A DNA stretch of 64,000 nucleotides from NCBI GenBank assembly GCA_012960245.1, contig DUBO01000025.1, positions 34,514 to 98,513 of the forward strand. The letters are read 5' to 3'. Below are positions 1,978 through 12,223 of this stretch, piece after piece (the stretch's first letter is position 1; every line of letters begins with the position of its first letter). A program made the position numbers and the translations under genes. Below the pieces are notes generated by a model. The model was not told the origin of the DNA. It was given only the letters and a program-made list of their open reading frames with translations, and did not search any database. Source of the DNA: Candidatus Binatota bacterium (lineage in GTDB: Bacteria > Desulfobacterota > Binatia > UBA1149).

Positions 1978-3393
1978 ATGATCAGGGCGCTGGCCCTGAT
2001 GCTGCTGCTCGGGGCAGGGCTGGCCGCATTCTGTCACGACCTGCACCCTGTTGCGTTGGCTACCGGCCCCGACATCCTCCTGGTCACGATCGATACGCTC
2101 AGGGCCGACCACTGCTCGGCTTATGGCTACGCCATTGAGACTACGCCTTTTCTTTCCGACCTGGCCCACGAGGGGGTGCTCTACGAGCAGGCGTGGGCGC
2201 CCTCGGCTACGACGGCCCCTTCGCACGCGGCACTGTTTGCGTCGAGGTGGCCGCGCTCGATGGGCGTGATGAAGAACGGCCAGCCGGTGCCAGGCGGCGA
2301 GCTCATGTTGGCCGAACTGATGTCAAAGGGTGGATACGCCACGGCCGCTTTCGTGAGCTCGCTGCCCGTGAGCTCTCAGTTCGGTTTCGGCCAGGGCTTT
2401 GACTACTTCGACGATGATTTCAACGCCGAGGGATCCTCGCGCGATAAACGCAAGGCGCAGGGCCATGGCAGGAAGTACACGCACCGGCTCGACCGTCGCG
2501 CCGACGCCACGGCCCGGCATTTTGAGAACTGGTTGCGGCAGCGCGATGACCCGCGGCCACTGTTTGCCTGGCTGCACTTCGTTGACCCCCACTATCCCTA
2601 CGGCAGCGATCGCCTGTTGGATCTCGAATGGCCAGATTCGGTTGGGGTGTCGATACGCGCTTACGACAGCGAAATTTTGAGGGCCGACCGTGGTCTCGAA
2701 ACCGTCGTTAACGCTTTTCGCCGACACTCGGCGGCGCTCTCCCCGGGCGGAGAAACTTCGGACAGGGGTTCGGTGGTGCTGGTTACCTCCGACCACGGCG
2801 AGGGGCTGGGCGATCATGGCTGGAGCTTTCACGGCATCAACGTGTATGAAGAGGCCGTCAGGGTACCCCTGGTGCTATGGGGCAGCCCGGGAATCGACAT
2901 CGGCGACACCGTGACTGGCGACACCGTCACTGGCGATACAGTGCCGGGGCAGGTTCGCAGCCAGCCGGTTACCCTGCTCGACGTGGCGCCCACCCTGACC
3001 GGCCTCGCGGGGCTTGACCGTGCGCCGTCTTTTCTCGGCCGCGAGCTTACCGGGCCGCTGCCCGAGGACCACGCCGTGTTCCTGCAGCGACGCAACTACC
3101 GGTCGCGGAGGGTAAGGGGACGCGAAGTACGGGGGACGCTTACTGCCGTCGTCGCCCAGGGCCACAAGTACCTGGTCACTGTATCGGGGGAGCAGTCGAG
3201 TACCGCGGAGCTCTACCACCTGGCCGATGACCCCGGCGAACTCGACGACCTGTCGGCATCCAGGCCCGGGCTGTCGTTGGGACTGGCCCGCCTCTTGTCG
3301 GGATGGGAGTCGGAGTACCCGGCCGTGAAGACGGTCCGCGTTTCTGACCGCGAAGTCATAAAGGCGCTGCGGTCGCTGGGCTACGTGGAGTGA
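1978..3393 (+). CDS. Secreted sulfatase-like hydrolase, alkaline phosphatase superfamily (Thr at the nucleophile position)
   Basis: A 471-residue exported hydrolase of the sulfatase/alkaline-phosphatase fold. The metal-binding start ILLVTIDTLRADH is at residues 33-45, a second metal site VTSDHGEGLGDHG sits in the C-terminal half, and the protein ends LRSLGYVE. The active-site position reads T-A-P-S-H (Thr79) instead of Cys/Ser-x-Pro-x-Arg, so a formylglycine-dependent sulfatase is unlikely; phosphodiester or phosphate-ester substrates are possible. ATG 1978 is preferred because MIRALALMLLLGAGLAAF is a good signal peptide; an upstream TTG at 1927 is in frame but adds a poorly conserved leader. 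It overlaps the next hydrolase gene by four bases (GTGA), suggesting translational coupling. Confidence 0.85.
   Translation: MIRALALMLLLGAGLAAFCHDLHPVALATGPDILLVTIDTLRADHCSAYGYAIETTPFLSDLAHEGVLYEQAWAPSATTAPSHAALFASRWPRSMGVMKNGQPVPGGELMLAELMSKGGYATAAFVSSLPVSSQFGFGQGFDYFDDDFNAEGSSRDKRKAQGHGRKYTHRLDRRADATARHFENWLRQRDDPRPLFAWLHFVDPHYPYGSDRLLDLEWPDSVGVSIRAYDSEILRADRGLETVVNAFRRHSAALSPGGETSDRGSVVLVTSDHGEGLGDHGWSFHGINVYEEAVRVPLVLWGSPGIDIGDTVTGDTVTGDTVPGQVRSQPVTLLDVAPTLTGLAGLDRAPSFLGRELTGPLPEDHAVFLQRRNYRSRRVRGREVRGTLTAVVAQGHKYLVTVSGEQSSTAELYHLADDPGELDDLSASRPGLSLGLARLLSGWESEYPAVKTVRVSDREVIKALRSLGYVE
2902..2946 (+). repeat. Three tandem 15-bp units coding GDTVT-GDTVT-GDTVP
   Basis: Three in-frame 15-base units (2902-2916, 2917-2931, 2932-2946) within the first hydrolase gene encode near-identical pentapeptides. 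They probably form a surface loop. Slippage could change the copy number without a frameshift. Confidence 0.8.
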
Positions 3394-4808
3394 AGCGGGG
3401 GTTGCAAAGAATAGCTGCCGCCTTGTCGGTGGCCTTGTTGCTTTCGCTGTCAGCCTGCAGCGAGCCGTCATCTACCGAGCCATTCCCCACCGGTCCGTAT
3501 CCCGAAGCACCGCTGCTGGTGCTCGGCGTCGACGGTCTCGAGTGGAACGTGGTGCTCGAACTGGTCAAGCGCGGTGACCTTCCCGTAATCGCCGGCCTCA
3601 TGCGCCGCGGCGTGTACGGTAGTCTTGGCGTCGATCGTCCCACCTTGTCGCCGGTGCTGTGGACAACGGCGGCCACCGGTCACCTCGCGGCTGAGCACGG
3701 GATTTCCGGCTTCGTGTACAGGCACAAAAAAAAGACCAAGTTGTTTCGCAGCTTCGATCGTCGTCGCCCGGCTTTCTGGAACCTCCTGGGCATGGCCGGC
3801 CAGCGAGTGGCCACGGTGGGTTGGTGGCTCACCTGGCCCGCCGAAGAAGTGAACGGCGTCATGGTTTCCCAGGCCAACACGATCACCAACTCCATGCGCC
3901 GCGACGGCATGGGTATAAGCAAGGGGGCGTTGTTTACCGGCCTGCAGCGGCAGGTATGGCCGCCGGCCATGGAGGCCCGCGTGTTGGCCGTACCCGCGCG
4001 GGTTGAGAGCGAACTCGACGAGCACATGGAGCGGGTGTTGGGACGCCTGCCCGGTGATCTACCCGAGGTAGAGGCGGTACTCATGCGCCACTGTCGCTGG
4101 GCCTTGCGAGCCGACGAAACTTATCGTCGCGTGGCGCTCGACCTGCTCGCTGCTGACGAAGGGTTTGATCTGCTGTCGGTGTACTTCGGTGGATCCGACG
4201 TGCTGGGGCACCGCTTCTGGCGCTACGCCTATCCGCAGCAGTACAAGCACCCGCCCACCGCCGATATGATAGACGCACTGGGCGATGTTCTGCACGACTA
4301 CTACCGCTGGCTGGACACGACCCTGGGCGAGTTGATCGCGGCCGGGCCCGGCAACGCCAACGTGGTCGTGGTGAGCGATCATGGCATGCACGCCATTCGA
4401 CCGCGCGCGCGTTTTGCTTCTGCCGACCGCATTCCGGCCCTCAACTCGGGTGGCCACTCGGACGCGCCCGATGCCTTGCTCATCGCCGCCGGTCCCTCGC
4501 TGCCGCTGGGCGACGGTGGCCTGCCGGAGAATCGCGAGGAGATCGTCGAGCTTGGCCGCCTGGTGGATCTCGCCCCTTCGCTGCTCGCGCTGCGGGGGCT
4601 TCCCTACGGGCTCAACATGACGGGCAGACCGATGCCGGCACTGCTGTCGGCGTCCTTTGCCGAGAAATTTCCGCTGACCTCTCGCCGTCGCTGGACCAGT
4701 GACGATTGGCGTCCGAGCTGGACCACGCCCCTGTCCGAGGAGAGTCTGCAGGACGATGATTCGGAGCAACGGCTGGAGCAACTGCGCTCGCTCGGCTACA
4801 TAAAATAA
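3390..4808 (+). CDS. Lipoprotein phosphodiesterase/nucleotide pyrophosphatase-like hydrolase
   Basis: A 472-residue member of the alkaline phosphatase superfamily, closer to type I phosphodiesterase/nucleotide pyrophosphatases than to the neighbouring sulfatase-like proteins. The signal peptide ends in a lipobox, LSAC (Cys23), so it is probably a lipoprotein. The first metal site is VLGVDGLEWNV (about residues 44-54). The nucleophile region PTLSPVLWTTAATG (84-97) has threonine and serine candidates, and VVVSDHGMHAIRPR supplies later metal ligands. It ends LRSLGYIK, the same tail as its neighbours. The GTG start at 3390 overlaps the upstream stop by four bases. Likely envelope-acting; substrate unknown. 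Confidence 0.83.
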   Translation: MKRGLQRIAAALSVALLLSLSACSEPSSTEPFPTGPYPEAPLLVLGVDGLEWNVVLELVKRGDLPVIAGLMRRGVYGSLGVDRPTLSPVLWTTAATGHLAAEHGISGFVYRHKKKTKLFRSFDRRRPAFWNLLGMAGQRVATVGWWLTWPAEEVNGVMVSQANTITNSMRRDGMGISKGALFTGLQRQVWPPAMEARVLAVPARVESELDEHMERVLGRLPGDLPEVEAVLMRHCRWALRADETYRRVALDLLAADEGFDLLSVYFGGSDVLGHRFWRYAYPQQYKHPPTADMIDALGDVLHDYYRWLDTTLGELIAAGPGNANVVVVSDHGMHAIRPRARFASADRIPALNSGGHSDAPDALLIAAGPSLPLGDGGLPENREEIVELGRLVDLAPSLLALRGLPYGLNMTGRPMPALLSASFAEKFPLTSRRRWTSDDWRPSWTTPLSEESLQDDDSEQRLEQLRSLGYIK

Positions 4809-4824
4809 TCCCTGTCTGTGGGGG

Positions 4825-6237
4825 TCAGTCGAGGTAACCCAGGGCCTTGAGGGCGGCGCGTTCAGATGGGCTGATGTCCGCCTCGCCGCCATCCTTCCGG
4901 CTGCGGGCCGGTGGGTTGGCTTGCTTCCACGCCTCCAGCGCCGCGCTCATCCGGGCCAGGCGAACGGGTTGTTGGTCGGCCCGGTTGCTGCGTTCGCCCG
5001 GGTCAAGGTCGAGTCGGTACAGTTCGGGCGGCCGCTGCTCGGCGAGGATGAGTTTCCACGGTGTTTCGAACCAGGCTTCTTCGCTGCCGGCCAGGCGCTT
5101 CAGGGGCGGCGAACGAAAGGGACGTCGCTGGGCATAGAACGGCGCCACGGGCGGCTGGGCTTCTACGGACAGCCAGGCCGACAGGTCGCGGCCCTGGGCC
5201 GTAAAAGGGCGGGTGGGGTTGAGCAGGCCGGCGACGGTGGGCGCGAGGTCCACCAGCGACATGGGCGTGGTTATTACCCGCGGTGCGAGCTTTCCCTGCC
5301 ACTGCATTATGAGCGGCACGTGCAGGGTTTCTTCGTACAGCAGCGTGCCGTGGCCAAACCCGATACCGGTTTCCTGTTGCCGTTCGGCCAGAGATTCGCC
5401 GTGGTCAGAGGCGACGACGATCAGCGGAGCCTCGCCGCGTGGTGACGATTGCCGGGCGAGTTTCACGATCGCGCCGAGCGCGCTGTCCACGTGGCTGACC
5501 TCGCCGTCGTATAGCCCACGTGCAGTCTCGACCTGTCTGCCGGGGAGCACAGCCGAACGAAGAAAACGCGGCGGGTCGCTGAAGCGTCGCGGTAGCTGAT
5601 CGTGGCGGGCCATCGTGCCGCGACGCAGAGTCGACGGGGGCTCGTAGGGTTTGTGGGGTTCCCAAAGGTGTACCCACAGGAACCAGGGCCCGTCACCGTT
5701 GTTGGCAAGCCACTTGCGCGTGAGCTCGACTATTTCCCCGGAGTTGCGCCAGTGTTGCTCGCGCTGTGGCGAGTCGCTGCTGTCAAAGCCCGACAGGTTG
5801 CGGCGTGGCGGATCCAGCCCCAGGCGTGCCGTTATCGCGGCGGTGGTTTTGCCTTGCGCGCGCATCCAGTCGGCGAGCGTGGGCAGGTCGTCGACCGCGC
5901 GGGACGCGTTTACCAGCAGGCCGTGGCTGCGCGGGTACAGCCCGGTAAGAATGGAGGCGTGCGAGGGGTCGGTGGTGGGCACGGTAGCGTGTGCCGACTC
6001 AAAACGTACGCCGCCGGTCGCCAGCCGGTCGAGGGCCGGCGAGCCGTGGCCATTATTGCCGGGGCCGTAGCCCCAGCTCCCCAGGCGATCGGCCCTCAGC
6101 GTGTCGATGGTAACCAGCAACACGTTGGCGTTGGCCCGGTCAGTGGCGGGTTCGGGCTGGGAGCAGGCGCCGGCAATCAAGGTCGCGGCGACGAGCGCTG
6201 CGGCGATCCTGCCCGACATCATCATCGTGACCTGCAT
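4825..6237 (-). CDS. Lipoprotein sulfatase-like hydrolase (Thr at the nucleophile position)
   Basis: A 470-residue sulfatase-fold protein. The signal peptide has a lipobox-like LIAGAC (Cys25). The N-terminal metal site VLLVTIDTLRADR is at 39-51, the active-site position reads T-D-P-S-H (Thr89) in a TVPTTDPSHASILTG context, and VASDHGESLAER is the second metal site. The tail is LKALGYLD. Three Met codons follow the assigned ATG closely (positions 5-7), so the exact start is uncertain. It converges on the previous hydrolase with 16 bases between stops, and its start lies only 16 bases from that of the next hydrolase on the opposite strand, so the two may share a compact divergent control region. 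Confidence 0.85.
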   Translation of the reverse strand: MQVTMMMSGRIAAALVAATLIAGACSQPEPATDRANANVLLVTIDTLRADRLGSWGYGPGNNGHGSPALDRLATGGVRFESAHATVPTTDPSHASILTGLYPRSHGLLVNASRAVDDLPTLADWMRAQGKTTAAITARLGLDPPRRNLSGFDSSDSPQREQHWRNSGEIVELTRKWLANNGDGPWFLWVHLWEPHKPYEPPSTLRRGTMARHDQLPRRFSDPPRFLRSAVLPGRQVETARGLYDGEVSHVDSALGAIVKLARQSSPRGEAPLIVVASDHGESLAERQQETGIGFGHGTLLYEETLHVPLIMQWQGKLAPRVITTPMSLVDLAPTVAGLLNPTRPFTAQGRDLSAWLSVEAQPPVAPFYAQRRPFRSPPLKRLAGSEEAWFETPWKLILAEQRPPELYRLDLDPGERSNRADQQPVRLARMSAALEAWKQANPPARSRKDGGEADISPSERAALKALGYLD

Positions 6238-6253
6238 AGAAGGTACAGGTTAG

Positions 6254-7723
6254 ATGTATGGCCCGTCCTTAGCTACAGTCGCCTCCGTGAGAGTCGTGAC
6301 CGCAGCGTTGTTTAAGCGCAGGCTGAGCCCGCGCGTCGTCGTCCTGTTGTTGGCCCTGGGCGTGGCCTGCGCGGCCGGCTGCGTGGGCGATCCGGGGCCA
6401 ACTCCACGTCGGGCCTACGACGATAAACCCAACGTGCTGCTGGTGAGTATTGACAGCCTTCGCGCCGACCACCTGGGCTTCATGGGCTACGAGCGCGCCA
6501 CAAGCCCGGTAATGGACCGCCTGGCCAAGAGCGCGGTCGTCTTCGACAACGCCCACAGCAGCAGTTCGTGGACGCTTCCTGCTCACGCCGCGCTCATGAC
6601 GGGCTTGCCCGACAGCGCCCACGGCGTGAGTCGTGGAGGGCGAGCAATACCGGCCGCCGCCGAGACCCTGGCCGAGGCTTTTAGTGTTGCGGGCTATCGC
6701 ACCATGGGCTTCTACTCCGGGCCCTTCCTTCATCCGGTGTACGGCTTTGGCCGCGGGTTTGACGAGTACGTAGACTGCAGCTCCTATGGCCTGGGCTCGG
6801 CAGACGCTGACCCCAAGCGCCTGCACTCGGCGTCGCACCGCGACGTGACCGGCCCCATCGTTAAGCGCGAGCTCGAGGCGAGGGCGGCGTCACTGGGTCG
6901 CGGGCCGTGGTTTGTTTTTGTCCACCTGTGGGACGTTCACTACGATTACATACCGCCGGCACCTTACGACACGATGTTTGATCCCGATTACACGGGCTCG
7001 ATGACCGGCGTCAAGTTCAAGGGAAACCGTGATTTTAAACCGGGAATGGACGAGGCCGACCGTCGCCACGTGCTGGCGCTGTACGACGGCGAGATAGCCT
7101 CGACCGACGACACGCTGGGCAGCATCGTTCGGGCCTTGCTCGCTGAGCAGGGGGATCTCGATAACAGCATCGTGGTCGTGACCTCGGATCACGGCGACGA
7201 GTTTCTCGAGCACGGTGGCAAGGGGCACCGGCGTACGCTTTACGAAGAGGTGTTGAAGATTCCGCTGCTGCTGCGCTGGCCGGCGGGGCTCAATCCACGT
7301 CGCGTCAGCGAGGCCGTGGGCCTTGTTGACCTCGCGCCGACCCTGCTCGACCTGGCCGGGCTTCCGCCGATGGCGAGCGTGGTGGGGTCGTCGTTGGCGG
7401 GGCTCGCCCGTGGCGGTGTCGAGGCAGACCGCGCCGTCCTGGCGGAGCTCAACGTGCCGCCCTATCTGCTGAGTGCGGTCGTGCAGGGTCAGTCCAAGTT
7501 GATTACCCGCCGCCGTGGTCGCCGGCCCGAGTACTTTGACCTGCGCACGGATCCGGGCGAGCAGCGGCCCCTGCCTGCAGACAGCGGGGGCGTTTTGTCT
7601 GGCCGCCTGCGCGGGCTGCTCGACGAGGCCGAGCAGCGGGCGCTCGAACCGCTGCTGCTTTCGCCGTCTGATGTTTCGCCGGCGATGGAAGAACAGCTGC
7701 GGCAGCTGGGCTACATAGACTGA
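6254..7723 (+). CDS. Lipoprotein sulfatase-like hydrolase (Thr at the nucleophile position)
   Basis: Fourth hydrolase of the group, 489 residues from the ATG at 6254. A GTG at 6287 (Val12) would give a shorter, more usual signal peptide; neither start has a clear ribosome-binding site. The lipobox is CAAGC (Cys43 in the longer numbering). Metal site VLLVSIDSLRADH, active-site T-L-P-A-H (Thr107), second metal site VTSDHGDEFLEHGGKGH, tail LRQLGYID. The absence of Cys/Ser-x-Pro-x-Arg argues against formylglycine chemistry. Its 3' end overlaps the convergent membrane-protein gene by 13 bases. Confidence 0.84.
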   Translation: MYGPSLATVASVRVVTAALFKRRLSPRVVVLLLALGVACAAGCVGDPGPTPRRAYDDKPNVLLVSIDSLRADHLGFMGYERATSPVMDRLAKSAVVFDNAHSSSSWTLPAHAALMTGLPDSAHGVSRGGRAIPAAAETLAEAFSVAGYRTMGFYSGPFLHPVYGFGRGFDEYVDCSSYGLGSADADPKRLHSASHRDVTGPIVKRELEARAASLGRGPWFVFVHLWDVHYDYIPPAPYDTMFDPDYTGSMTGVKFKGNRDFKPGMDEADRRHVLALYDGEIASTDDTLGSIVRALLAEQGDLDNSIVVVTSDHGDEFLEHGGKGHRRTLYEEVLKIPLLLRWPAGLNPRRVSEAVGLVDLAPTLLDLAGLPPMASVVGSSLAGLARGGVEADRAVLAELNVPPYLLSAVVQGQSKLITRRRGRRPEYFDLRTDPGEQRPLPADSGGVLSGRLRGLLDEAEQRALEPLLLSPSDVSPAMEEQLRQLGYID

Positions 7724-9192
7724 TCGATCAGCATGTAGACCTTGACCTTGTGCGATGCGAACTGGGTGTCGGCTACTCGGCGGTAGTAATTTTTCAGCCA
7801 GCGGTTGCCGCCGGGCATGGGGCCGCGGGAGTGCAGCACTACGTTGGGAAGCCGACCGTCGCGCAGCGGCTTCCACGGCAGATCGCCGCGGTCGTGCATC
7901 CACGCGGTCATGCCGCGTATGCCCAGGCCCAGCGGCACGTGGTTGTCCATGTGCGAGAAAGCCAGCAGGTGGGTGCAGCCCACCGCGTAGATTGACTGTC
8001 CCGACTCCTGCATGGCGTGCACGCGTTCGGACAGCCGGTACTGCGAGGCGAGCTTGTGCCCCCGGGGTACGTTTTTACCGGGCTGCGCCAGGGGCAGCAG
8101 GACGGCCACAGCCACCGCCAGCAGCAGGGCCGCGGCGGGGTAACGACTGTTTCGTGCCAGCGCTGAGACGGGCAGGCCCAGCAACAGGCCTATGCCCACG
8201 GCCATGAAGGGCTCGACCAGGAAGCGGTCGGGGAAGCCCTGGTAGTCGTACAGCGTAAAGAGCAACGCGGCGTGGCCGCCTGCCACCAGCGCTATCCATC
8301 CCGGCCGGGCCGACAGCCAGCCGCCCACGCGAGATGGCCTGGCCAGGCACCAAAGCCAGGCCCCGGCCGCCGCGGCCACCGACAGGGCTGGCAAAACGCT
8401 CGCGCTGTTGAATCCCTCCTGCACGCGCAGGAACCAGGCCACGTGGCGGCCGAATAATTTGAATCCCGGGCCGTGGACCATGTACACCGAGGGGTAGATG
8501 ATTGTCTGCTCCCACTGCTGGGCCAGCGCGTCGTGGGCCAGGAAGTAGAGCTCGTAGGGCAGAAGCGCCAGCGCGAAGCCGGCGCAGTACAGCGCAAAGC
8601 TGCGCAGGCGCCCAGGTGCCATGAGCAGGTCGACCAGCGCAAACACGGCAACCAGCGCCGTTGATTGCCAGCACAGGAAGGCCAGTGCCGAGGCCGCGCC
8701 GCAGGCCAGCGGACGCCGCCGCGATGAAGCAAGCACGGCCCCGAGCGTGAACAGCGCCATGAAAACTTTAGGGCGCACGCCCATGGCGCCCATGCCTATG
8801 AAGCCGCTGAAGCCCAGCATCGACAGGGCGGCCACCAGTCCGGCTGCGTTGCCGCCCAGGCTGCGCGCGCACAGGAAGACCAGTGTCACCACCCCGGCGG
8901 TCGCGGCCACGCTCAGCGCGCGGGCCGAGTGAAGGTCGTTGACGCCCAGTGTTCGACCGCTGCGTATGGCGGCCGCCGTGGCCAGCATGGTGAAGGAGGT
9001 CTTCGGATCGAACTGCGACACGTGCGGGGCCACGCCCGAGGCGGCCCGTTCGGCTATGAAGAAGTAGTGCTGGTTGTCGCTGATCAGCGGTCCATCGAAG
9101 GGCGCCACGGATAGCACTCGCAGCAATGCGAAGGCCAGTACCGCGAGGGCGGCCATCGAGAACAGCCCAGCTGGTTTTTCGATTGCTGTCAC
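7711..9192 (-). CDS. Polytopic membrane protein, possibly a GT-C/GT39-type glycosyltransferase
   Basis: A 493-residue integral membrane protein with about 10-12 hydrophobic segments spread over most of its length and a short soluble C-terminus (roughly the last 90 residues). The first extracytoplasmic loop carries acidic residues (PLISDNQHYFFIAERAASG), the arrangement seen in lipid-linked-sugar (GT39/ArnT-like) transferases, but I do not see enough to name a reaction. GTG start at 9192. Given the four envelope hydrolases beside it, a role in building or modifying a surface glycan or lipid is a reasonable guess only. Confidence 0.65.
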   Translation of the reverse strand: MTAIEKPAGLFSMAALAVLAFALLRVLSVAPFDGPLISDNQHYFFIAERAASGVAPHVSQFDPKTSFTMLATAAAIRSGRTLGVNDLHSARALSVAATAGVVTLVFLCARSLGGNAAGLVAALSMLGFSGFIGMGAMGVRPKVFMALFTLGAVLASSRRRPLACGAASALAFLCWQSTALVAVFALVDLLMAPGRLRSFALYCAGFALALLPYELYFLAHDALAQQWEQTIIYPSVYMVHGPGFKLFGRHVAWFLRVQEGFNSASVLPALSVAAAAGAWLWCLARPSRVGGWLSARPGWIALVAGGHAALLFTLYDYQGFPDRFLVEPFMAVGIGLLLGLPVSALARNSRYPAAALLLAVAVAVLLPLAQPGKNVPRGHKLASQYRLSERVHAMQESGQSIYAVGCTHLLAFSHMDNHVPLGLGIRGMTAWMHDRGDLPWKPLRDGRLPNVVLHSRGPMPGGNRWLKNYYRRVADTQFASHKVKVYMLIDQSM

Positions 9193-9984: not shown

Positions 9985-11235
9985 TCAGCCGGTTATTCGT
10001 CGCAGGATACGGTCGGCTATAAGCGAAAACATTTCTTCCAACTCGCTGTTGTCCGGCGAGAACACCATCGTTCCCTCGGGCTGGTTGGGGTTGACCATGC
10101 CGTTCTCATTTGCCAGCCGACGCAGAAACTCGAGGTCGGGTTGGGCGTATTCGTAGGGCGACGTGGGGTTGCCCAGGGCGATGGTGTAGACCGTGTAGCC
10201 CGACGCGCGCAGGAGGTCAGCTTGGTCCTCGGCCTGGGAGATGCCCAGCGCACGGATGTTGTCGCCGTTTACTGACAAGCCACCTGGCAATGAGAAGGGC
10301 CACGGCGACCAGTAGTACGACAGGTTAGGGTACAAGACCGGGTTGCCGCTGCTGTAAAATCCTACGACCTTTTTGCCGTTGTCGGGATCGAAGAGTCCCC
10401 GGTACCAGGAGCTGCTTCCGTAGGCAGCCACCACCCCGTCGTAGGGTTCGGGTGCGTAGTAGTGGTTGATGGTAAAGGTGTCACGAAACGCGGTCGGCCG
10501 CCCGTCGGTAAACAGCACCACTATTTTTACGGCGTCTTCGCGCACGGGGGCGTTGTCGAGTTCGACGCGTGCCAGCCTGAGCCCCTCGTCTATGTTGGTG
10601 TCCGAGATCGGGTCCAGGGATCCAATTATGGACTGGGCTGTCGACTTGAAGTTCTTGGTGATGGGCATGTTGGTCATGCCCCAGGTGGAGTAGGTCACCA
10701 GCGCGAACTGGTCGATGTCGTCGTCAAAGTATTCGACGAAGGCCTGTGCCGCGTCCTGCAGGTCGTCGAACGAATTGCTGGTTTCGAGCGAGTACGAGAC
10801 GTCGAGCACGAGCACGAGGTCGAGCGGAAAGCGCGTTGCCTCGCCGACCGCGTAAAGATCAATGTCGTCCTGGCCGATCAGCCGCGAGAACACTCCTGGC
10901 AGTTCGTGGTTACTCGATAGTTCTACGCGTACCGCGTCGGTGCTCGGAAAATCTATGTCGACCTCGTAGTCGAGGTTACCGCCGGCGGTGAAGTTTGCGC
11001 GCGCGATGTCGAGCGCGATCTCTTCCATCGCGGCCACGCCCTTGTGGGTGTAGCGCGATGCCGCGAGCGCGCCGGCGTCGATGGCCTTGGCCATGCGCGA
11101 GCGGGTTATGTAGGCCGTGCCGAGGTCGACGGCCAGGCCGACGGCCGCGAGCGTGGCCACGAGCGAGAGCACGAAGAGCACCAGCACCACGCCGCTTTCG
11201 CCGTTACGCCGAGTTTCCTGGTAGCGCGTCGTCAT
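9985..11235 (-). CDS. TadG-like pilus assembly protein with von Willebrand A domain
   Basis: A 416-residue protein. The N-terminus RRNGESGVVLVLFVLSLVAT matches the TadG class: a short basic leader, a glycine, then one membrane segment that keeps the protein in the inner membrane. A von Willebrand factor A domain follows (metal site LVLDVSYSLET with the D-x-S-x-S pattern, and later VVLFTDGRPTAF). The ATG at 11235 overlaps the upstream TGA by one base (TGATG), favouring it over a GTG three codons earlier. Known TadG proteins belong to Flp/Tad pilus systems; no TadA ATPase, platform or secretin gene is present here. Confidence 0.82.
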   Translation of the reverse strand: MTTRYQETRRNGESGVVLVLFVLSLVATLAAVGLAVDLGTAYITRSRMAKAIDAGALAASRYTHKGVAAMEEIALDIARANFTAGGNLDYEVDIDFPSTDAVRVELSSNHELPGVFSRLIGQDDIDLYAVGEATRFPLDLVLVLDVSYSLETSNSFDDLQDAAQAFVEYFDDDIDQFALVTYSTWGMTNMPITKNFKSTAQSIIGSLDPISDTNIDEGLRLARVELDNAPVREDAVKIVVLFTDGRPTAFRDTFTINHYYAPEPYDGVVAAYGSSSWYRGLFDPDNGKKVVGFYSSGNPVLYPNLSYYWSPWPFSLPGGLSVNGDNIRALGISQAEDQADLLRASGYTVYTIALGNPTSPYEYAQPDLEFLRRLANENGMVNPNQPEGTMVFSPDNSELEEMFSLIADRILRRITG

Positions 11236-11753
11236 CAGAACCACGCCACGTCGTAAAGATCGTCGGGCCAGGGCGACATGCCCCAGGCTGAAAGATTGAA
11301 TACCGGGTCGTAGTCGTGAGCGATTTCCACCGCGGTGAGTATGACCCCGTCGTCGAGTTCGGTTATTCCCGGTATGTTGGCCGTCGCCCCCAGCACGCCG
11401 ACCTTGCTCGCGAACGAGGAGAGTGGTCCGTTGGCGACCTGTTCAAAGATGACTGGCGTGCCGTCAAAGGCGCCCTGTCGTCGCACGCGCGAGATGATGA
11501 CTATGCCGTCAACCGAAATGTCGAGCGGGTCGTCGCTCAGCTCGGTGGCGGCCACGGCCTGCTCGGGTGTAGATCCGCGCGACACAAGTGAACCTGCTTC
11601 GCGGGTGAGATTGGCCATCACCTGGCTGAAGAAAATGAGCCTGCCCAGGTCGATCGAGCCCAGCAGGATGATCGCGAGCAAGGGGGTTATCAGCATGAGC
11701 TCCACGTAGGCCATGCCGCTTTGCCCGCGCGGTTTTCTGTCGACAAGTGTCAC
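11235..11753 (-). CDS. TadE-like minor pseudopilin
   Basis: A 172-residue TadE/TadF-type protein. It has a class III signal: basic leader RKPRGQSG, predicted cleavage after Gly13, Glu at +5 of the mature chain (MAYVE), then a hydrophobic helix LMLITPLLAIILLGSIDLG. The GTG start at 11753 overlaps the upstream stop by four bases (GTGA) and its own stop overlaps the following start, so the three genes are tightly coupled. Expected to be processed by a prepilin peptidase and to act in Flp/Tad pilus assembly. Confidence 0.82.
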   Translation of the reverse strand: MTLVDRKPRGQSGMAYVELMLITPLLAIILLGSIDLGRLIFFSQVMANLTREAGSLVSRGSTPEQAVAATELSDDPLDISVDGIVIISRVRRQGAFDGTPVIFEQVANGPLSSFASKVGVLGATANIPGITELDDGVILTAVEIAHDYDPVFNLSAWGMSPWPDDLYDVAWF

Positions 11754-12223
11754 GACCCGGCTCCCGGAAATTCTTCGTTGCGAAAGCTGGCCGAGGTGCT
11801 GAACTCGTAGCCGTCAGGCGGGAAAAGTGTCCCCAGCAGGGGAGTGATGATGTCAACGCTGTGGGTCACGCGCACAGTCATGACGTCGCCGGGGCCGCCG
11901 GGGCCGGCTACCTGCTGGCCACTGCCGTTGATGGCGGTGAGCGATATGTCGCCCTGGTCGATATCGACCAGCGAGTAGTTGTCGATAACCGCGAGTACTG
12001 AATCCTGGCGGGAGAGTTGCTGGCCCGGGTTGAGGGGATCTTCCATCGTTCCGCCAATGGTCGCGTAGCGAGCGGCCTCGCTGACGGCGTGTTGCAGCAT
12101 GGAGCGGACATAGTAGATGTGGCAGAAGTCGAAAATAGAGAACAGGAACATGGCAAACGCCACGCTCGCGAGCGCCGCTTCGGTTACCATGGTGCCTCTC
12201 TCGCCGTTTCGTCGTTGTCTCAA
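11750..12223 (-). CDS. TadE-like minor pseudopilin
   Basis: A 157-residue protein, first of the three-gene Tad group. The leader RQRRNGERG ends in the predicted cleavage glycine (Gly10); the mature N-terminus TMVTEAALAS has Glu at +5, followed by a hydrophobic segment FAMFLFSIFDFCHIYYV. The apparent start is TTG at 12223; the next in-frame Met (12 residues later) would remove the leader and is unlikely. The 225-base region upstream (12224-12448), shared with the divergent DUF4301 gene, must hold the promoters of both, but no clear -10/-35 pair was recognised. Confidence 0.78.
   Translation of the reverse strand: MRQRRNGERGTMVTEAALASVAFAMFLFSIFDFCHIYYVRSMLQHAVSEAARYATIGGTMEDPLNPGQQLSRQDSVLAVIDNYSLVDIDQGDISLTAINGSGQQVAGPGGPGDVMTVRVTHSVDIITPLLGTLFPPDGYEFSTSASFRNEEFPGAGS

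Follow-up and report, generated by a model that had tools for sequence, protein, structure and literature searches.

A C-terminal LGY tail marks Ser/Thr-nucleophile enzymes of the alkaline phosphatase superfamily and may serve as a docking helix supplied in cis or in trans

Results

The window, by which we mean the whole stretch of 64,000 nucleotides of contig DUBO01000025.1 (Candidatus Binatota bacterium) that was analysed, carries four clustered genes of the alkaline phosphatase (AP) superfamily whose products end in the same short sequence, here called the LGY tail. In Pfam searches P0001 (1978..3393, plus strand, 471 aa), P0003 (4825..6237, minus strand, 470 aa) and P0004 (6254..7723, plus strand, 489 aa) match PF00884 Sulfatase (E 4e-39 to 1e-42), and P0002 (3390..4808, plus strand, 472 aa) matches PF01663 Phosphodiest (E 4e-26; 92.9 bits against a curated cut-off of 23). 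The first-pass annotation, made from the letters of the sequence, had described four superfamily proteins without a formylglycine site, and both parts of this description hold: the open reading frames (ORFs) are real, and the column of the sulfatase Cys is occupied by Thr in all three PF00884-type proteins, with His in place of the Arg of C/S-x-P-x-R. The motifs are T-A-P-S-H in P0001 (Thr79; 2212..2226, plus strand), T-D-P-S-H in P0003 (Thr89; 5959..5973, minus strand) and T-L-P-A-H in P0004 (Thr107; 6572..6586, plus strand). In P0002 the predicted nucleophile is Ser87 (3648..3650, plus strand), which a HMMER alignment places on the nucleophile of Xanthomonas NPP, at the NPP Thr position; D48, D270, H274, D330 and H331, which from the NPP literature we take to be metal ligands, are conserved.

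The shared ends are also as described and are true C-termini: LRSLGYVE in P0001 (3367..3390, plus strand), LRSLGYIK in P0002 (4782..4805, plus strand), LKALGYLD in P0003 (4828..4851, minus strand) and LRQLGYID in P0004 (7697..7720, plus strand). All four proteins look exported, as judged by eye and not by a predictor, with a lipobox-like Cys in P0002, P0003 and P0004 and a Sec-type N-terminus in P0001. The lipobox-like Cys of P0004 (C43) is conserved at a level of at least 90% across 27 sequences.

Structure comparison places these proteins among known enzymes of the superfamily. P0002 shares PF01663 and the nucleophile and metal-ligand positions with the NPP family (Xac NPP, 2gsn; ENPP1-7), and its VIA Z scores against this family are 23-27 (ENPPs about 27, rmsd 2.6-2.7 over about 273); it differs from NPPs in having Ser for Thr and in its LGY tail. 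No solved chain lies within phmmer E 0.1 of the single P0002 sequence. The closest named records to P0002, at 94-96% identity, are bacterium UBP10_UBA1149 and a 'Proteobacteria' metagenome-assembled genome, and further relatives come from records labelled Deltaproteobacteria, Binatota and Binatia. P0001, P0003 and P0004 share the PF00884 domain with the S1 formylglycine sulfatases of SulfAtlas, one of which (6hr5) is the best VIA match of P0004 (Z 41.7, rmsd 2.0 over 345), but carry T-x-P-x-H where those enzymes have C/S-x-P-x-R. The first Foldseek match of P0004 (E 9e-27; VIA Z about 36) is the S. meliloti choline sulfatase SmCS (6fny/6g5z), which has the same fold. SmCS is a formylglycine enzyme. 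It differs further in its long tail (residues 449-512), and it is not among the 25 Protein Data Bank (PDB) matches of an LGY profile. P0001 and P0004 stay below the 500-bit cut-off of P_eth_NH2_trans, the NCBIfam model for phosphoethanolamine transferases (EptA/MCR), at 35 and 27 bits. Thr stands at the nucleophile position in 30 of 59 sequences of the PF00884 seed, and Thr-type proteins of this family are not accepted as sulfatases without experiments (PMC5066984).

The LGY tail is a mark of a class of Thr/Ser superfamily enzymes and is not local to the window cluster. To regard it as a feature of the four neighbours, all of which have it, was correct but too narrow, since it is present on 21 of the 24 superfamily proteins that a Pfam search finds in the same genome (16 of 19 PF00884-type and 5 of 5 PF01663-type); the one C-A-P-S-R protein of that set (L003) is without it. 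Among 1,123 ORFs of at least 100 aa, read in six frames over the window and 17 further stretches of the genome, the motif closes 18, every one of them a superfamily gene. Genome-wide, L-G-Y-x-x-stop is matched 11 times (once without a true stop codon), against none for the reversed pattern. In the window's genome and its relatives, the best ORF ends in the tail at 26 of 30 loci, the exceptions being L085, where the motif is internal, L096, L097 and L098.

The same restriction is found farther afield. In 44 named loci, from records labelled Binatota, Eisenbacteria, Planctomycetota, Acidobacteria/Blastocatellia, Myxococcota and Gemmatimonadota, the tail is present in 41 of 42 query genes, the remaining one running off its contig, and in none of 3,111 ORFs of at least 100 aa outside the superfamily, membership being defined by two HMMs built from the window genome's own proteins. 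A rescan for ORFs from 30 aa up gave ten short ORFs with the tail: cut enzyme ends, two frameshifted enzyme ends, a remnant, a TPR-like ORF and two small ribbon-helix-helix (RHH)-like proteins. Searching for the tail first in 59 genomes of the phylum, we obtained 25 matches in 7 genomes, of which 21 lie within superfamily ORFs; the other four are an orphan tail, a contig-edge match, an unrelated 332-aa protein (TctC-like by eye) and a small protein. The orphan tail (L065; window genome C2:30339-30365, minus strand) reads ...VERLKALGYLN-stop in a short open frame directly after a tRNA-like sequence (by eye), and looks like the leftover end of a superfamily gene next to an insertion or to a join made in assembly.

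Outside bacteria, a tail-first search of eight haloarchaeal plasmids gave five matches, and every gene matched is annotated as a sulfatase, a sulfatase-like protein or a member of the alkaline phosphatase family. Eleven of 11 haloarchaeal plasmid proteins that start near the catalytic core, without a signal peptide, end in the tail; they were taken from coverage-ordered matches, an order that favours tails, and three of them are neighbours of listed matches. A Paenibacillus protein from the same set is tail-less.

Across 146 tail-bearing proteins the consensus is E-(R/Q)-L-(R/K)-(S/A)-L-G-Y-(I/L/V)-(E/D). Exactly two residues follow LGY in 90 of them and at most nine in 125. Some tails sit 10 to 45 residues before the C-terminus, in a survey that takes in tail-first loci and is biased towards tails. 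The G and Y are invariant in 48 PF01663-type rows, where the linker before the tail is not conserved, and in 27 PF00884-type rows the G is invariant and the Y at least 90% conserved. Two observations concern TPR-like sequences: a PF01663 protein (L085:1276-3360) has its LGY motif internal and followed by a TPR array, and a TPR-like ORF (L215:6771-7457), on the strand opposite to a PF01663-type ORF, ends in ERLKALGYL. A TPR receptor for the tail was considered and dropped, as the single natural fusion (L085) is too little to build on. We found no literature on an LGY tail or an LGY small protein, in a search largely outside subscription journals, and the papers containing the letter strings of the tail were unrelated among the matches listed.

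That the tail might direct sorting or secretion through a dedicated system that recognises it, which the first-pass annotation had proposed as one option, would agree with its place near the C-terminus in most carriers and with the exported look of the four window proteins. This option has not survived the survey and we consider it very improbable. A signal of this kind is unlikely in view of the haloarchaeal carriers, which start at the catalytic core, and small proteins without a signal peptide (see below) bear the tail as well. Moreover, the tail is not common to unrelated exported proteins, given its absence from all 3,111 non-superfamily ORFs, and it can lie before a TPR array or well short of the end of the protein.

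Within the PF00884-type proteins the tail follows the type of nucleophile. Among 92 ORFs, near-copies included, those with Thr/Ser number 60 with the tail and 5 without, and those with Cys number none with it and 23 without; four rows belong to neither group, three having no motif in view and one having Pro. When tail-first loci are excluded, the counts are 50 against 4 for Thr/Ser and 0 against 23 for Cys (Fisher P 7e-16). The same tail recurs in a second family, PF01663. In a survey of this family that leaves out tail-first loci, the catalytic positions are kept in 93 rows with the tail (gaps in four rows), and among 21 rows without a terminal tail seven array paralogues have lost the nucleophile or metal ligands and others look active. 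The seven come from records labelled Eisenbacteria, Effluviviaceae or 'bacterium'. At L123, L124, L131, L132, L135, L136 and L139, PF01663 genes form tandem arrays that mix tail-bearing enzymes with tail-less copies, some of them active-looking and others pseudoenzymes.

In AlphaFold models of P0002 and P0004 the cores are confident, with pLDDT of at least 90 in 311 of 472 and 299 of 489 residues, respectively, and the tail is modelled as a low-confidence helix behind a low-confidence linker, whose length varies among aligned sequences. The alignments of the 60 solved chains listed all stop at or before position 504 of the 512 profile positions, and the 25 PDB matches of a 24-position tail profile up to E 10 include no superfamily chain. 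According to these models, then, the tail sits behind a flexible linker and is not an ordinary structural strand of the fold. One may ask if it is simply an intramolecular latch that packs on its own catalytic domain and has no role in complexes. The near restriction of the tail to the superfamily and its fusion to the enzyme in most cases would fit such a latch, as would seven carrageenan-sulfatase rows that align through the last residue of the P0004 model in the VIA comparison. The variable linker and the low confidence of the tail in both models speak against it, as do tail-bearing small proteins beside tail-less enzymes, and we regard a latch of this kind as rather unlikely.

The first of these small proteins, a tail-first match, is a 73-aa RHH-like protein encoded directly before a tail-less PF01663 gene (L157, L213), and a second case was found in L097/L214. 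Used as a query against 198 genomes of the phylum, the 73-aa protein had 10 matches spread over 9 genomes, each alignment extending to the last residue. Together with L214 and L215 these make 12 bacterial small LGY genes, every one of which has a PF01663-type (NPP-type) gene within 4 kb. None of the 16 PF01663-type genes near them has the tail (11 loci with the C-terminus in view), compared with 93 of 113 elsewhere (Fisher P 7e-11), a comparison group that is biased because it was chosen by similarity to a tail-bearing protein. Between the two genes lie an ATP sulfurylase gene in L228 and about 3.6 kb in L229; tail-bearing PF00884-type ORFs occur farther along L213 and L231.

A similar arrangement is seen in haloarchaea, where four of nine weak matches to the small protein (E 0.002 to 0.5) end in LGY. 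Three of the four directly adjoin a sulfatase-like gene, and all three enzymes are tail-less; the fourth lies about 3 kb from a sulfatase that the stretch read does not cover in full. The five RHH matches that lack an LGY end serve as a control: no gene annotated as sulfatase or phosphatase family lies within 4 kb of any of them, and three adjoin RelE/ParE toxins. In an alignment of 15 small proteins, which carry no signal peptide, the L, L, G and Y of the tail are the sole invariant columns. As the enzymes beside small LGY proteins are tail-less (0 of 16 in bacteria and 0 of 3 in haloarchaea), the tail seems to be given either in cis or in trans. These observations support the suggestion of the first-pass annotation that the tail binds a partner.

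Beside the four genes lies one for a membrane glycosyltransferase (7711..9192, minus strand; PF15971, DolP-mannose mannosyltransferase-like), which is a conserved neighbour. In three other loci of the same order (L102, L106 and L110), one or two homologues of this glycosyltransferase (two within L106 and L110) lie in between homologues of P0002, P0003 and P0004 (37-49% identical); three of the five glycosyltransferase homologues scanned pass the PF15971 cut-off. At 14 or 15 of 42 loci the PF01663 gene has a PF00884-type gene no more than 5 kb away; L140 and L142 had no query ORF, and the neighbour in L119 is uncertain owing to its overlap with the query ORF. A Wzt-type ABC transporter is encoded in L213, a polysaccharide cluster, and glycosyltransferases are annotated in seven of eight haloarchaeal loci. 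Next to the window cluster, at 9985-12223, are Tad-pilus-like genes (two with Pfam matches, to VWA/Tad and to TadE, and a further TadE-like ORF), which are conserved in the two closest records.

Sulfate-activation genes are found in three of the 12 small-protein loci (Sat in L228, CysD/CysN in L229 and APS kinase in L230). This is above a rough chance estimate that assumes 14 kb viewed per locus and a genome of 3.5 Mb (P 0.0004 to 0.0015), but the cases are few. The APS kinase of L230 bears an extra LGY helix. We dropped a general link between APS kinase and these enzymes, as none of 30 APS kinase loci has a superfamily ORF within flanks of 1.5 kb, and likewise the CysD tail as independent evidence, which may be ordinary because E. 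coli CysD ends in KKRQGYF. On a Paenibacillus cellulositrophicus plasmid (L270), a tail-less Thr-type sulfatase-like gene lies in a run with cysC (adenylyl-sulfate kinase) and two sulfatase-like genes.

The sulfate-activation genes and the haloarchaeal glycosyltransferases would also fit a tail that tags its carrier for regulation or assembly and whose receptor is another protein common to all settings, for example a glycosyltransferase or a sulfate-activating enzyme, and not the catalytic domain. We think this improbable: the carriers belong to different compartments, some exported and some without a signal peptide, and both the 30 APS kinase loci and the QGYF end of E. coli CysD count against a sulfate-activating receptor.

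Discussion

Here, we have described a short C-terminal element that is common to two families of the AP superfamily. We propose, with a probability of roughly 0.5, that the LGY tail is a docking helix for Ser/Thr-nucleophile enzymes of the superfamily, which acts in cis or in trans by binding the catalytic domain and so assembles or gates the enzyme. On this proposal, drawn from sequence patterns, a short helix on a flexible linker would bind a catalytic domain of the same family, likeliest that of another protomer, at or near the mouth of the active site. The catalytic domain is what the exported, signal-less and small-partner settings have in common, and it is therefore the most likely target. 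The tail would usually be fused to the enzyme, and in a cytosolic subset a small RHH-like adaptor encoded beside a tail-less enzyme would present it instead. A precedent by analogy for a tail that acts in trans or between protomers is the choline sulfatase, whose C-terminal tail drives oligomerisation and meets the active-site entrance of the partner (PMC5870055).

Several observations weigh against this proposal. Some proteins have neither a tail nor a small partner in view: L015, L018 (whose site is atypical) and L095, the surroundings of which were read over 14 kb (as L217) with no small partner found, as well as one ORF each of L112 and L113 and the active-looking PF01663-array copies. In the tree of PF00884-type proteins, from which four fragments were left out, a single branch (SH-aLRT 98) divides the Cys rows from all others and seven changes are required for the tail, so that the link between tail and Thr is a property of a clade and not repeated independent evidence. 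The tail is not confidently placed in the models, linker and tail having pLDDT of about 55-64 in both. The small proteins match RHH models only poorly (E 0.02 for NikR; for Pfam RHH_1, E≤0.1 in 3 of 15, best 0.0056), and the 73-aa protein gave no match in the window's own genome. Finally, the RHH-linked enzymes may be a subfamily that never had a tail.

What chemistry could the tail-bearing enzymes perform? We suggest that they modify glycans by transfer or removal of sulfo or phospho groups, and that the four window proteins act together with the neighbouring membrane glycosyltransferase. The glycosyltransferase-interleaved homologues in three loci favour one half of the earlier reading, phosphoester-type enzymes on an envelope polymer, in that the substrate of the window enzymes is probably an envelope glycan. 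The other half fares less well, for phosphoester chemistry is plausible and sulfo-transfer is at least as live. 3'-phosphoadenosine 5'-phosphosulfate (PAPS) is not expected where exported proteins act, and for the window proteins phospho-transfer, sulfo-transfer and hydrolysis could each apply.

Sulfo-transfer by proteins of this fold has been reported. Agl30 (VNG1056C) and Agl31 (VNG1057C) of Halobacterium salinarum are AP-superfamily 'sulfatase-like' glycan sulfotransferases, as shown by deletion and by sulfation gained in Haloferax; one of the pair is cytosolic and the genes lie in a glycosylation cluster (PMC11980604). In the ascamycin cluster, a 'sulfatase' that is needed for production is joined with CysD and APS kinase (PMC4257720). 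Together with the sulfate-activation loci, these two systems make sulfo-transfer a lead for the cytosolic branch. Agl30 and Agl31 may be kin to the LGY class. Since they are active with C-terminal tags, a free C-terminus is not needed there (PMC11980604), and in that paper 'ribbon-helix-helix' occurs solely in the title of a reference. More tentatively still, we may be looking at an undescribed class of AP-fold glycan sulfo- or phosphotransferases, widespread among bacteria and haloarchaea, that LGY as a universal docking peptide activates or assembles through the enzyme's own C-terminus or an RHH-like adaptor, the cytosolic branch of which would comprise sulfotransferases dependent on adenosine 5'-phosphosulfate (APS) or PAPS and unrelated to the classical fold.

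Thr/Ser proteins of PF00884 and PF01663 are common and are often annotated as sulfatase or phosphatase, and a C-terminal mark that sets Thr/Ser enzymes apart from formylglycine sulfatases would aid their annotation. For tail-less enzymes the cis/trans pattern names a partner protein that can be tested directly, and it hints that prokaryotes may have a new means of building or controlling the sulfation or phosphorylation of glycans.

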